From Nissabacter sp. SGAir0207 (GTDB lineage: Bacteria > Pseudomonadota > Gammaproteobacteria > Enterobacterales > Enterobacteriaceae), in assembly GCF_005491205.1 (NCBI RefSeq), contig NZ_CP028035.1:124001-188000 (forward strand): a stretch of DNA of 64,000 bases, given 5' to 3'. Of this stretch, positions 58,799 to 62,998 are shown piece after piece. Positions within the stretch are counted from its first letter, which is position 1. Each line of letters starts with the position of its first letter. Under the pieces are notes generated by a model. The model saw only the letters and a list, made by a program, of their open reading frames with translations, was not told the origin of the DNA and did no database searches. The position numbers and the translations under genes are program-made.

Positions 58799-58820
58799 AC
58801 CGCCCCGCTGCCGGGGCGGT
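58799..58820 (-). terminator. Hairpin after autotransporter gene A
   Basis: ACCGCCCCG/CGGGGCGGT with a four-base loop, 7 bp past the stop. A near-identical hairpin follows gene B. Confidence 0.65.
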
Positions 58821-58827
58821 CTGTGGC

Positions 58828-60735
58828 TTAGAAGCTATATTTCACCGTCAGTGAAAGCCCCTTGTCGCGAATGCTCTCCTCCTGCCAGCGCCATGCATCC
58901 AGCCCGACGGTGGCGGGGCCATGTTGGTAGTGTGCGCCCAGCTGCATCAGGCTGTTGAGGCCGCCGCCGGTCTGCTCCTCTTCCAGTGTGAAACGGTGAC
59001 CGGCAAGGGAAGCGGTGCGCTGGCTCTGGTGGTAACCAAGGTTCGGCCCACCCTCGAGCAGGGCGCTGACGCGCCAGCCGTGCAGGTCACCGGCTTCCAG
59101 CCGAAGACCGGCAACTGCGTCCACGGCGCTTTCGCTCACCGCGTCCATGTTCAGGCGATAGGCTCCCTGCTCCTGATAGCCGCCCTCCAGCGTGTGGCGC
59201 ACCCGGACACCGGCATACGGCGTCAGCGTCAAATCGTGCGGCAGGGTGAAGGTCTTGCCAGCGTCGCTACGAAACTCCAGCGACTGCCAGCGCTGGTCGT
59301 GTCGGGCGGATTGGGTGGAAGCCATACGGCTGCTGTCGAGCTGGTGCAGGTCATAGCGCAGGCTGTTTTGCCATGCCCAGCCACCGTCAAGCGGCAGCTG
59401 GTGCGTCAGGCCAAAGAACTGGCTATAGCCGCTCTCCAGCCCGCTGTCGCCGGGCTGCTGCGCGCCACTGCCATCCAGCCGTGCCATGCCGTACTCCAGC
59501 GCCAGCTGGTGACTGCCGACGCTGAACGACTGGCGTAGCGCCAGCATGTCATAGTCAGTGTCGTCGCCCAATTCGGTGCGCGGGTCACCCTGCGCCACCA
59601 GATTGAACGCCAGCCCGTTGCCGAGCGGCGCGGCCTGCTGCGCCAGTTGGGTAAAGCGATGGCTGAGCACCCGCGCCTCGCGCCGTGTAGTCTGCGCGCT
59701 GCCGCTAAGCTGACGCCACGCCTGATGAAGGGCCGGGCTGGCAACCTGCTGCGGGTTGTTCAGGACATCATCTGCCGTCTCCATGGTAAAATTGCCCTGC
59801 ATGTCATAATTCCACTCAAGTTCAAAGGGGCTGTAAGTACCATTCATAATGAGATTGTTGTCGATGACGTCCCATCCCTTAACATACAACACCTTGCCGT
59901 AAGGCGTAACTAAGGTCGAGTCATAGGTTCGGTAAGCGAATTTCACGGATGAATAGTAAGCGTTATTGAAATAAAACGAGCTGAGGGTGACCGTTTTATT
60001 ATAAACATCCACCGTCGCGTTATTATTAAATGTGGCCGTGGTCTCCATATTGAAATTTCGGTCGGCATCATAAGACCACTCAAGGTCGAACTTATAGGGG
60101 CCAAGCGTGCCGCTCATCAGCAAATTATTATCGACCACCTCCCACTGTTTTACGACAAAATCCGTGAAGCCCCCGATAATTTCAGGCACGCCAGCACTGA
60201 AACTATAATAGAGCGGTAACTGGTCGAAGTGCTGGCCATTCACATTGACGTCATACATGGTGAACTTTGCATACTCCGTGTCCACCACGATCCCGTTATC
60301 AAAGGTGTAAGTCGCACCGGGCGTGTCGTCGTCCGGGTCAACGGGATCGGGGTCGGGCCACGGGCTGGGAATGTCGTCAGGGTAGATGGGGCCTGGGTAA
60401 TCCGGTTCGTCCCACTCCTCTTCATCATCATACTCGGCCAGCGCCCAGGCCCCGAGGGCGGTAGCCAGCACGCCTGTGCCGGAGAGAATACCGACCCACA
60501 CATCTTCCGAAGAGGATGACGCGGCGACGGGAACCGGCGTACGTACCGGCGCAGGCGCAGGCGCAGGCGTGGGTGACGCCACCACCGGTTTCAGGCACTC
60601 GGGCGGCAATTTGGCGATCTGCTCCTGGCTTAATCCTTTAAGGTCGCGCGGGCAGGGGGTGGATGAGCTGGAACGGGTCGCCGCAGCGCTTTGGCCGCTG
60701 ATGGCCAGCATGACGGCCAGGGCAAGCAATCTCAT
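58828..60735 (-). CDS. Autotransporter A with a novel repeat passenger
   Basis: Type Va secretion: a C-terminal barrel in the outer membrane displays the passenger. 635 aa from ATG 60735, chosen because AAGGAG stands 9 bp before it; the ATG six codons earlier overlaps that site. Signal peptide MRLLALAVMLAISGQSAAA; a short two-Cys segment (CPRDLKGLSQEQIAKLPPEC); Pro/Ala linker; hydrophobic stretch at about 79-101 (VWVGILSGTGVLATALGAWA); acidic Pro/Asp linker. Then come two passenger modules (about 145-234 and 236-322). The helix and barrel fill the last 288 residues, ending KYSF. The passenger fold is unknown to me and too short for a normal beta-helix. Paralogue of gene B. Confidence 0.85.
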   Translation of the reverse strand: MRLLALAVMLAISGQSAAATRSSSSTPCPRDLKGLSQEQIAKLPPECLKPVVASPTPAPAPAPVRTPVPVAASSSSEDVWVGILSGTGVLATALGAWALAEYDDEEEWDEPDYPGPIYPDDIPSPWPDPDPVDPDDDTPGATYTFDNGIVVDTEYAKFTMYDVNVNGQHFDQLPLYYSFSAGVPEIIGGFTDFVVKQWEVVDNNLLMSGTLGPYKFDLEWSYDADRNFNMETTATFNNNATVDVYNKTVTLSSFYFNNAYYSSVKFAYRTYDSTLVTPYGKVLYVKGWDVIDNNLIMNGTYSPFELEWNYDMQGNFTMETADDVLNNPQQVASPALHQAWRQLSGSAQTTRREARVLSHRFTQLAQQAAPLGNGLAFNLVAQGDPRTELGDDTDYDMLALRQSFSVGSHQLALEYGMARLDGSGAQQPGDSGLESGYSQFFGLTHQLPLDGGWAWQNSLRYDLHQLDSSRMASTQSARHDQRWQSLEFRSDAGKTFTLPHDLTLTPYAGVRVRHTLEGGYQEQGAYRLNMDAVSESAVDAVAGLRLEAGDLHGWRVSALLEGGPNLGYHQSQRTASLAGHRFTLEEEQTGGGLNSLMQLGAHYQHGPATVGLDAWRWQEESIRDKGLSLTVKYSF

Positions 60736-60753
60736 AAACGGATGCTCCTTCAT

Positions 60754-60943
60754 TTAATAGCGGAGATATCATTAGCCGGGTAAATAAACGTGGGCAGGAT
60801 GTTTTTTTGCGCCGGATATAGTAATCCAGCCGAAAAGTGCAGGATGATTTTTAATCAGGAAGGCTTTCTGAATAACGCAAGGAAATACAGGGTATTGCGC
60901 TGGATTAATAACGCATTAAATTATGATGAAAAATTGTTTAATC
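60754..60943 (-). repeat. Duplicated upstream region, copy A
   Basis: Nearly identical to 62810-62998 (offset about 2056 bp); one T is gained in a T-run, and most other changes lie in the distal 70 bp. Both copies should hold the same promoter. The remaining bases up to gene B's stop hold only its terminator. Confidence 0.9.
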
Positions 60944-60988
60944 TTGAACGGAAATAGAGGCTTCCAGAAAAATAGAAGAAGAAATAAC

Positions 60989-61006
60989 GCCCCGCTACCG
61001 GGGCGA
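60989..61006 (-). terminator. Terminator after autotransporter gene B
   Basis: CGCCCCG/CGGGGCG stem with a four-base loop; on the minus strand it is followed by TTATTTCTTCTT. Confidence 0.7.
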
Positions 61007-61015
61007 TAGTGTTCC

Positions 61016-62791
61016 CTAGAATTGATATTTCACCGTCAGTGAAAGCCCTTTATCGCGAATGCTCTCCTCCTGCCAGCGCCACGCATCCAGCCCGACGGTG
61101 GCGGGGCCGTGCTGGTAGTGTGCGCCCAGCTGCATCAGGCTGTTGAGGCCGCCGCCCTCTTGCTCTTCTTCCAGTGTGAAACGGTGACCGGCAAGGGAAG
61201 CGGTGCGCTGGCTCTGGTGGTAACCAAGGTTCGGCCCACCCTCGAGCAGGGCGCTGATGCGCCAGCCGTGCAGGTCACCGGCTTCCAGCCGAAGACCGGC
61301 AACTGCGTCCACGGCGCTTTCGCTTACCGCGTCCATGTTCAGGCGATAGGCGCCCTGCTCCTGATAGCCGCCCTCCAGCGTGTGACGTACCCGGACACCG
61401 GCATACGGTGTCAGCGTCAGCTCACCCGGCAGGGTAAAGGTCTTGCCAGCGTCGCTACGAAACTCCAGCGACTGCCAGCGCTGGTCGTGCTGGGCGGATT
61501 GGGTAGAGGCCATACGGCTGCTGTCGAGCTGGTGCAGGTCATAGCGCAGGCTGTTTTGCCATGCCCAGCCATCGTCGAGCGGCAACTGGTGCGTCAGGCC
61601 AAAGAACTGGCTGTAGCCACTGTTCAGGCCGCTGTCGCCGGGCTGCTGCGCGCCACTGCCATCCAATCTTGCCATGCCATACTCCAGCGCCAGCTGGTGA
61701 CTGCCAAGGCTGAACGACTGGCGCAGTGCCAGCATGTCATAGTCGGTGTCGTTGCCCAGTTCGGCGCGCGGGTCGCCCTGTGCCACCAGATTGAACGCCA
61801 GCCCGTTGCCGAGCGGCGCGGCCTGCTGCGCCAGCTGGGTGAAGCGGTGGCTGAGCACCCGTGCCTCGCGCCGTGTGGTCTGCGCGTTGCTGGCAAGGTG
61901 CTGCGCGAGGGAGGCCGTGGGCGGGGTGGCGCTATAGCTGGAAGTGCTGACCTCAAAATCACCCATATCGTCGTAGGCCCAATCGACGTCGCCAGCCTGA
62001 TTGGTGCCCTCCAGCAGCAGCCTGCCGTTGCTAACTTTCCAGTTTGTTACGTAGAGCGTCTGGCCGTTGGGGGCCGAGAGTTGGCCGTTCCGGTAATCAA
62101 AGGTCAGGGAGGAGTAGTAGGTGCCGAGGATCTCTACCGAGTTGAGCGTCAGGGTCTTGTCTTGAATATCGACGTTGGCCCCATTGCTAAAATGGAGCGT
62201 GGAGTCGAGGTTGAACTGCCCCAGCGCATCGTAATTCCACTCCAGTTCATACTCGCTGACCGTGCCGTAGAGCAACAGATCGCCCTGCCGCACGGCCCAT
62301 GAGTTCAGATCCAGCGTCCTGCCGCTGGGAGCGATTAGCCTCACCTGTGCGCCATATTTGGCGTAATCAAAGGTCAGCGATGTGTAGTAGTGGTCATAGA
62401 TCTTCACCGACTCCAGCGTCAGCGTCTGGGCCTTGGTATCCACGGTGGCGTCATTGTCGAAGATGTAGATGACCTGTGGCGTGGGTTCCGGGTCCCAATC
62501 GGTATCGTCATCATTGTCATTCTCCGACAGCGCCCAGGCACTTAATGCCCCGGCGGTGACCACCCCGGCGGTCGCCAGTAGGGTGTTCCACGCATCCCCG
62601 GAACGCTCTGGCGCGGCGACGGGCGCGGGCGAGGTCGCCACCGGTTTCAGGCACTCCGGCGGCAATTTGGCGATCTGCTCCTGGCTCAATCCTTTGAGGT
62701 CGCGCGGGCAGGGGGTGGATAAACTGGAGTGGGTCGCCGCAGCGCTTTGGCCGCTGATGGCCAGCATAACGGCCAGGGCAAGCAATCTCAT
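61016..62791 (-). CDS. Autotransporter B, tandem paralogue of A
   Basis: 591 aa from ATG 62791 (same AAGGAG argument as gene A). The first 50 residues match A except two; the last 288 align without a gap and differ at only 11 positions by eye, ending KYQF. Between them identity collapses. There is a shorter linker, a hydrophobic segment WNTLLATAGVVTAGALSAWA (about 68-87), an acidic stretch, and two modules at about 111-199 and 201-283. These repeat the pattern TLTLxSV, YY(S/T)SLTFDY, W(A/K)V, LLLxGT and (E/D)WxYDxxGxF. A surface protein; adhesion is a guess. Each gene has its own promoter copy and terminator. Confidence 0.85.
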   Translation of the reverse strand: MRLLALAVMLAISGQSAAATHSSLSTPCPRDLKGLSQEQIAKLPPECLKPVATSPAPVAAPERSGDAWNTLLATAGVVTAGALSAWALSENDNDDDTDWDPEPTPQVIYIFDNDATVDTKAQTLTLESVKIYDHYYTSLTFDYAKYGAQVRLIAPSGRTLDLNSWAVRQGDLLLYGTVSEYELEWNYDALGQFNLDSTLHFSNGANVDIQDKTLTLNSVEILGTYYSSLTFDYRNGQLSAPNGQTLYVTNWKVSNGRLLLEGTNQAGDVDWAYDDMGDFEVSTSSYSATPPTASLAQHLASNAQTTRREARVLSHRFTQLAQQAAPLGNGLAFNLVAQGDPRAELGNDTDYDMLALRQSFSLGSHQLALEYGMARLDGSGAQQPGDSGLNSGYSQFFGLTHQLPLDDGWAWQNSLRYDLHQLDSSRMASTQSAQHDQRWQSLEFRSDAGKTFTLPGELTLTPYAGVRVRHTLEGGYQEQGAYRLNMDAVSESAVDAVAGLRLEAGDLHGWRISALLEGGPNLGYHQSQRTASLAGHRFTLEEEQEGGGLNSLMQLGAHYQHGPATVGLDAWRWQEESIRDKGLSLTVKYQF

Positions 62792-62809
62792 AAACGGATG
62801 CTCCTTCAT

Positions 62810-62998
62810 TTAATAGCGGAGATATCATTAGCTGGGTAAATAAACGTGGGCAGGATGTTTTTTGCGCCGGATATAGTAATCCAGCCGAAAAGTGCAGGAT
62901 GATTTTTAATCAGGAAGGGTTTCTGAATAACCTAAGTAAATACAGTGCATTGCGGCAGATTAATAACCGATTAAATTATGATGAAAAATTATTTAATT
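62810..62998 (-). repeat. Duplicated upstream region, copy B
   Basis: Partner of 60754-60943. It includes the region upstream of gene B's start and AT-rich sequence suited to a promoter. The gap from here to 63135 is AT-rich and holds no other gene that I can support. Confidence 0.9.

Follow-up and report, generated by a model that had tools for sequence, protein, structure and literature searches.

A tandem pair of short BigA-type autotransporter genes

The window, by which we mean the whole 64,000-nucleotide stretch of Nissabacter sp. SGAir0207 DNA that was analysed, carries two intact genes, here called A and B, in tandem on the minus strand (ORF analysis), between neighbours that, from the look of their proteins, we take to encode a pirin-like protein and a PTS-permease-like protein. 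The features of the pair are collected in Table 1. The repeated unit runs from ~190 bp before the start codon to a G+C hairpin past the stop codon, so that A and B, each with its own upstream DNA and hairpin, may each form a transcription unit. A promoter scan of the coding strand of the shared upstream DNA returned no sigma-70-like site, and the hairpin 3' of B is weak taken alone (the scan of the stretch gave 6 sites against 4.7 expected in shuffles).

Table 1. Features of the A/B locus (positions in the window)
Feature	Position	Strand	Evidence
Gene A, short BigA-type autotransporter, 641 aa	58828..60753	-	ORF; PF25784 and PF03797 above curated cut-offs
Gene B, short BigA-type autotransporter, 597 aa	61016..62809	-	ORF; PF25784 (two stretches) and PF03797 above curated cut-offs
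A constant N-terminal module, residues 1-56, probable signal peptide and C-x18-C loop	60586..60753	-	2/56 residues unlike B; motif
B constant N-terminal module, residues 1-56	62642..62809	-	Comparison with A; motif
A variable passenger core, residues 148-351, two BigA_N-like domains	59701..60312	-	129/193 core residues unlike B
B variable passenger core, residues 114-307, two BigA_N domains	61889..62470	-	Pfam; comparison with A; cut by hand
A linker helix and translocator barrel, residues 352-641	58828..59700	-	PF03797; comparison with B
B linker helix and translocator barrel, residues 308-597	61016..61888	-	PF03797; comparison with A
A upstream region common to B	60754..60942	-	Inside 92.3% block; D3, 91% over 140 nt
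B upstream region common to A	62810..62997	-	Inside 92.3% block; D3, 91% over 140 nt
Terminator-like hairpin 3' of B, 7 G-C pairs, T-rich tail	60988..61005	-	Hairpin scan
Matching hairpin 3' of A, less T-rich tail	58801..58820	-	End of 92.9% block; by eye, absent from scan output

Although the first-pass annotation did not recognise the pair as a described family, A and B have the make-up of short BigA/YdbA-type autotransporters, combining BigA_N domains with a NalP-like barrel, and so do not form an unknown family. The PF25784 scores were 40.7 and 79.1 bits for A and B, respectively (cut-off 24.5), and both proteins end in a PF03797-type translocator barrel, a trait of type Va autotransporters. 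Like the BigA/YdbA family (PF25784, PF25783, PF03797; NF033178), they have BigA_N domains, a barrel alignable with the last ~300 positions of NF033178 and an N-terminal C-x18-C motif with a hydrophobic segment, as in 18 of 25 relatives. Unlike the family, they have no Pfam match to the BigA_beta sandwich (PF25783, absent from both hit lists at E up to 1), a domain that P0004, P0005 and all three of the large paralogs scanned do have, and they are ~600 residues long, against open frames of ~870-2500 in most of the relatives counted. Whole-protein scores against NF033178, a model whose name calls BigA an adhesin, were 333.6 and 358.5 bits for A and B, well under the curated 3400.

A hydrophobic stretch was recognised by eye at the N-terminus of both proteins, and a helix was predicted at residues 5-19, with low confidence, in the structural model of A. 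This model was weak (mean pLDDT 51, pTM 0.34) and its barrel match alone was used, the best structural match being NalP over the barrel part only. The structural table for this weak model held no match confined to the passenger core, a result that is neutral either way, and a sequence search of solved structures with B gave no match.

Past the probable signal peptide, residues 34-105 of A (60439-60654) and 34-94 of B (62528-62710) contain a 20-residue CP...C loop followed by a Gly/Ala-rich hydrophobic segment of 19 residues (mean hydropathy 1.4-2.1), which leads into a mostly acidic linker; the loop cysteines are the sole two cysteines in either protein. The sample behind the count of relatives given above was the 30 of 42 loci listed, five with open 5' ends being left out, and seven of the 25 loci with complete 5' ends were without the motif as searched. 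A membrane-like segment, as this one appears to be, is odd at the front of a secreted passenger.

Constant ends and a divergent middle

The first-pass annotation had described shared upstream DNA, near-identical protein ends and sharp borders, and these were borne out. The upstream regions were similar over ~190 bp. The two differences that it counted over the first 50 residues remained the only two over the first 57, and its eleven gap-free differences over the last 288 residues were recovered, a twelfth lying just outside, at A residue 352 (12/290 from that residue to the end, gap-free). By blastn, A and B shared two long blocks, one of 92.3% over 390 columns (upstream DNA and gene start) and one of 92.9% over 903 columns (barrel and hairpin), with an additional short, weak block of 73% over 70 columns. 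In a two-break model the left border falls after A residue 78 and the right one at A residue 353; nucleotide identities in the successive segments were 0.934, 0.517 and 0.935, and the log-likelihood rose from -970 without a break to -754. Divergence was thus not even along the pair, ends and middle being different, and the same borders appeared at silent sites.

The middles were 52% identical in nucleotides over aligned codons and 33% identical in amino acids over ~200 residues. While the strong divergence reported earlier stands, the description of the middles as almost unrelated does not, as they are homologous, with BigA_N domains found by Pfam in both. The passenger domain borders in A and B were cut by hand, Pfam reporting only the second A domain, and domains so cut were 30% (A1-B1), 40% (A2-B2), 40% (A2-B1), 45% (B1-B2) and 36% (A1-A2) identical. 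Similarity among the four domains does not follow their position, so that on this comparison the passengers are different cassettes.

Silent sites

Fourfold-site counts were confined to codons that are fourfold-degenerate for the same amino acid in both genes. In the ends, 157 of 177 such sites matched, against 25 of 53 for the middle (p 1.3e-9). As a yardstick, the adjacent pirin gene was compared with that of three congeners, giving 55/94, 63/96 and 65/97 matches (59-67%). Measured against it, the paralogous ends of A and B are younger at silent sites than the variable middle; provided that silent sites change at similar rates in pirin and the ends, the ends seem younger than the species split and the middles seem to date from before or around it. 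Gene parts of equal age would be predicted to show about equal silent divergence, and those of A and B do not, so the silent-site border points to recombination and disfavours selection alone. Of the two causes proposed in the first-pass annotation, recombination that keeps the ends uniform is therefore supported, while diversifying selection as the only cause is disfavoured, although fast change of the passenger is also real.

A close relative and the locus in congeners

P0002, the closest relative of A, differed in the passenger core at 44 of 203 residues from A and at 124 of 192 from B, and in the barrel at 7 of 290 from A and 6 of 290 from B. The contrast between core and barrel in its comparison with A argues that fast evolution of the passenger is real. 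P0002 thus has an A-type passenger on the same chassis from another source, which agrees with the recombination reading. A tree-shape test with P0002, which is weak in that it uses protein sequence only and 11 residues, gave p values of 0.013 with corrected and 0.061 with raw distances. The barrels of A, B and P0002 form approximately a trichotomy, the fork of A and P0002 against B having support of 90/0 (P0002 as protein only). The barrel tree groups the three with P0005 and the gene at the Chimaeribacter arupi locus, with support of 93/90, which is under the tool's own star level.

Between pirin and PTS lie two genes in Nissabacter sp. SGAir0207 and one, of 830 aa, in C. arupi; the other two congeners (C. 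coloradensis is among the congeners) have no BigA gene at this site, the genus sample being four genomes even with no completeness limit. P0004, a C. arupi protein with three BigA_N stretches, is a close copy of the 830 aa locus gene and, apart from A and P0002, was the best match covering most of B (41% identical). The search with A matched A itself, P0002 and B only. Neither protein search, each of which scored only the ~8000 candidates sharing most words, yielded a passenger donor for A or B.

The Pro/Asp-rich linker of A (compared with P0002; 60312-60440) varies in length among relatives in a manner resembling in-frame repeats, and Asp/Gly repeats like it vary among the large paralogs.

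Large paralogs in the same genome

The genome encodes eight further BigA proteins of 1560-1590 aa, of which two lie as a pair, three as a triplet and three singly (L055, L056, L057, L058 and L059); three congeners have 0-1 BigA genes. No transposase was seen by eye among the flanking ORFs printed. By these comparisons the large set is a lineage-specific expansion with a mosaic history. The nearest neighbour of a paralog shifts along the gene, and the PHI statistic for the eight was 0.508 against 0.600 (sd 0.004), with 0 of 1000 permutations as low, so that a single history is rejected. Their passengers differ less than those of A and B, with window means of 57-89% amino acid identity over columns 101-1200 and the lowest values at columns 451-600. 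Silent divergence was 0.21-0.45 along most of the gene and reached 0.50-0.62 only at columns 101-150 and 451-600. At least ~430 bp of upstream DNA was common to six of the eight in pairwise matches; the other two shared at most ~23 bp by the start codon, one of them having a farther-out stretch. The barrels of A and B are 53-55% identical to those of the large paralogs.

Multi-copy genomes elsewhere

A search with B matched 28 of 295 genomes drawn from the family, Nissabacter sp. SGAir0207 included. Barrels per genome numbered 10 (its own), 4, 4, 3 and 2 in five of these, one in each of 22 and none in one. A Pfam search for BigA_N across the order gave a hit in a single genome of 295, that of Nissabacter sp. 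SGAir0207, and the E. coli control was hit as well; as the B search had found 28, that figure was not used as a family count. A plasmid search with the A/B locus gave no match. A contig scan with B returned eight stretches, none of them relatives, and one with the barrel alignment returned 42 loci.

In Mangrovibacter yixingensis (G198), copies 1-3 share a passenger block (85-98% amino acid identity) from which copy 4, within flanks similar to theirs, differs (30-56%), while all pairs of copies are 96-100% identical in nucleotides from column 1501 on. Fourfold matches between copies 1 and 4 were 21 of 60 in the block and 652 of 734 outside it (p 2.6e-20). Columns 661-840 also vary between these two copies, though less strongly (68-75% amino acid identity). 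Copies 2 and 3 end at contig ends, and their front parts lie outside the comparison.

The tandem pair in G236, a relative of Enterobacter sp. ENT03, could be compared over the 3' piece of its first copy, which is broken. Here pS was 0.68-0.86 over columns 301-750, then 0.26, 0.47 and 0.08 in turn, and finally 0.00 over five 75-codon windows. Silent sites are close to saturated along most of the passenger part covered, and 375 codons farther on carry zero silent change; fourfold matches in the two parts were 82/163 and 347/353. On visual inspection, the N-termini of the pair did not reach the same level of similarity.

Four BigA genes (L093, L095, L096 and L097) are present in Trabulsiella odontotermitis TbOT1.10. 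Their 3' 1.9 kb is 99.7-100% identical in three of four comparisons, the fourth being 97.3% over 2.1 kb; the contigs stop inside the shared repeat, which limits the comparison to the 3' part. One of the four other multi-copy genomes falls outside the constant-end pattern on these alignments: the three barrels of Citrobacter amalonaticus (G064) are just 45-53% identical to one another. A MAG labelled Oscillospiraceae includes a 4.8 kb contig whose BigA gene looks enterobacterial (L090), probably through contamination.

Passenger classes at E. coli ydbA

Of 5,426 complete E. coli genomes, 2,484 contain the related ydbA barrel, at 80-90% identity to that of the query strain. When 1.5 kb passenger segments of three strains served as probes, at least 80% of the probe was covered in 1,201, 182 and 364 genomes, three separate counts that may overlap; for the first probe, 2,397 genomes gave some match, at many places per genome. 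The three alleles (L123, L124 and L125) occupy one chromosomal site and have a common barrel and unlike passengers. Compared pairwise with no collinearity filter, they aligned over the last ~1.1 to 1.9 kb of the gene and the DNA that follows (88-92%), and elsewhere over short stretches only (69-76%). For two of them, identity was 22-57% in passenger windows and 91-95% in the final 360 codons; fourfold matches, summed by hand, came to 85/304 and 106/159, respectively. The flanking pdxI gene was mostly 93-98% identical, so the barrel is more diverged between classes than pdxI. A comparison of four strains with the ydbA reference, in which off-diagonal matches were dropped, included one strain (L126) approximately identical to the reference throughout and of the same class. 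Passengers are thus not fully conserved across strains, the three alleles being different, while a fourth strain (L126) has nearly the reference allele. The ydbA of L124 is annotated as two CDS, and three other E. coli strains (H13-H15) have an insertion sequence in the probed part.

Interpretation

The anatomy of the pair, the silent-site border, membership of the domain family and recurrence in other genomes can be read directly from the sequence comparisons. We consider it probable that A and B are tandem duplicates that carry different passengers on one chassis as a result of homologous recombination in their conserved ends. The whole gene, with its upstream DNA and hairpin, would have been duplicated in tandem. 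Its product would be a short type Va autotransporter whose chassis of signal peptide, Cys loop, hydrophobic segment and translocator barrel displays a pair of BigA_N domains, and recombination in the conserved ends would have given A and B different display cassettes. In the one genome of the species analysed, either replacement of one passenger after the duplication or conversion of the ends of an older pair could have led to this. A process of this kind is also seen in other multi-copy BigA/YdbA members. More weakly, we infer that the displayed BigA_N domains bind surfaces, or meet immune or phage pressure, which would favour new passengers while the export parts are kept; to judge from the family and the fast passenger change, A and B may have a role in adhesion or immune variation.

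One alternative is that a young duplication was followed by import of one passenger from an outside strain, allelically or horizontally, with no exchange between A and B. This has a real chance of being correct, if short of an even one. A single internal replacement accounts for both borders, copy 4 of Mangrovibacter is of similar shape, and deep passenger classes exist as alleles at E. coli ydbA. However, the searches described above found no donor, exchange is evident among the large paralogs of the same genome, and the G236 pair resembles conversion of the 3' part. That same pair, in which a near-saturated passenger gives way to zero silent change, has the shape expected if an old duplication had both ends repeatedly converted by concerted evolution while the passengers were never exchanged, for which babA/babB and homA/homB provide a precedent in the accessible text of one report (PMC2795765). 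As an account of A and B, concerted evolution is possible but rather doubtful, as left and right tracts of similar age would be needed, to judge from their nearly equal identities, and the barrels of A, B and P0002 form a near trichotomy rather than joining A with B.

It is very unlikely that selection only, acting on duplicates of equal age by purifying the barrel and diversifying the passenger with no recombination, produced the pattern: while the passenger does outpace the barrel between A and P0002, the same border is present at silent sites, and the ends are more alike, and the middle less alike, than the species yardstick. Least credible of all is that misassembly stitched the pair together from pieces of other BigA genes, for although repeated ends do break assemblies of this family (as in Trabulsiella), the window sits in a 3.93 Mb contig, P0002, from a separate 199 kb contig, has the A passenger on the same chassis, and the A and B barrels are only 53-55% identical to those of the large paralogs.

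For the family as a whole, we tentatively suggest, as a possibility that we hold to be somewhat doubtful, that BigA/YdbA is a cassette-exchange display system across Enterobacterales, in which passengers are traded among paralogs and alleles. If so, the shared export module would provide both homology arms and a common chassis for the passengers, its front consisting of signal peptide, C-x18-C loop, Gly/Ala-rich membrane-like segment and acidic linker and its rear of the NalP-type barrel. Trading would then yield deep passenger classes at single loci, as at E. coli ydbA, and gene sets as large as the ten of the Nissabacter genome. The driver of passenger turnover, be it host receptor, antibody or phage, would be directly testable with existing genomes, and barrel trees of such paralogs need not mirror the history of the displayed part.

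Comparison with known systems

The principle is already known, from babA/babB and from the mixing and matching of autotransporter parts. No report of passenger exchange among BigA/YdbA paralogs or ydbA alleles was found in the literature, subscription papers being mostly outside reach, and the main text of the C. arupi paper contains neither "autotransporter" nor "BigA". Earlier inference of passenger exchange on a common barrel came from distant autotransporters; here, short-distance exchange is suggested with silent-site evidence by four gene sets in three genomes, in addition to the ydbA allele classes.

In Helicobacter pylori babA/babB and homA/homB, the accessible text describes a 3' part conserved by concerted evolution and a diverse middle segment (PMC2795765), and in this A and B resemble them. 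They belong to another protein family, however, and while the 5' segment of homA and homB diverges between the genes in that text, both ends are alike in A and B; intragenomic recombination is reported in the literature for H. pylori, and for A and B is deduced from sequence. Autotransporters have been described, in the accessible part of a comparative study, as mixing and matching barrels and passengers, with BigA listed among those with a NalP-type barrel (PMC3419190). The principle and the barrel group are the same as for A and B, but that part of the study compares between families, in contrast to the present pattern, which lies between paralogs and alleles and comes with silent-site evidence. 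The type V adhesin genes fap2, cmpA and radD of Fusobacterium nucleatum are likewise presented, in the accessible text, as autotransporter genes shaped by recombination and variable in copy number (PMC10995627), with exchange that is gene-wide and between strains or subspecies, whereas in A and B it would involve a sharply bounded passenger block.
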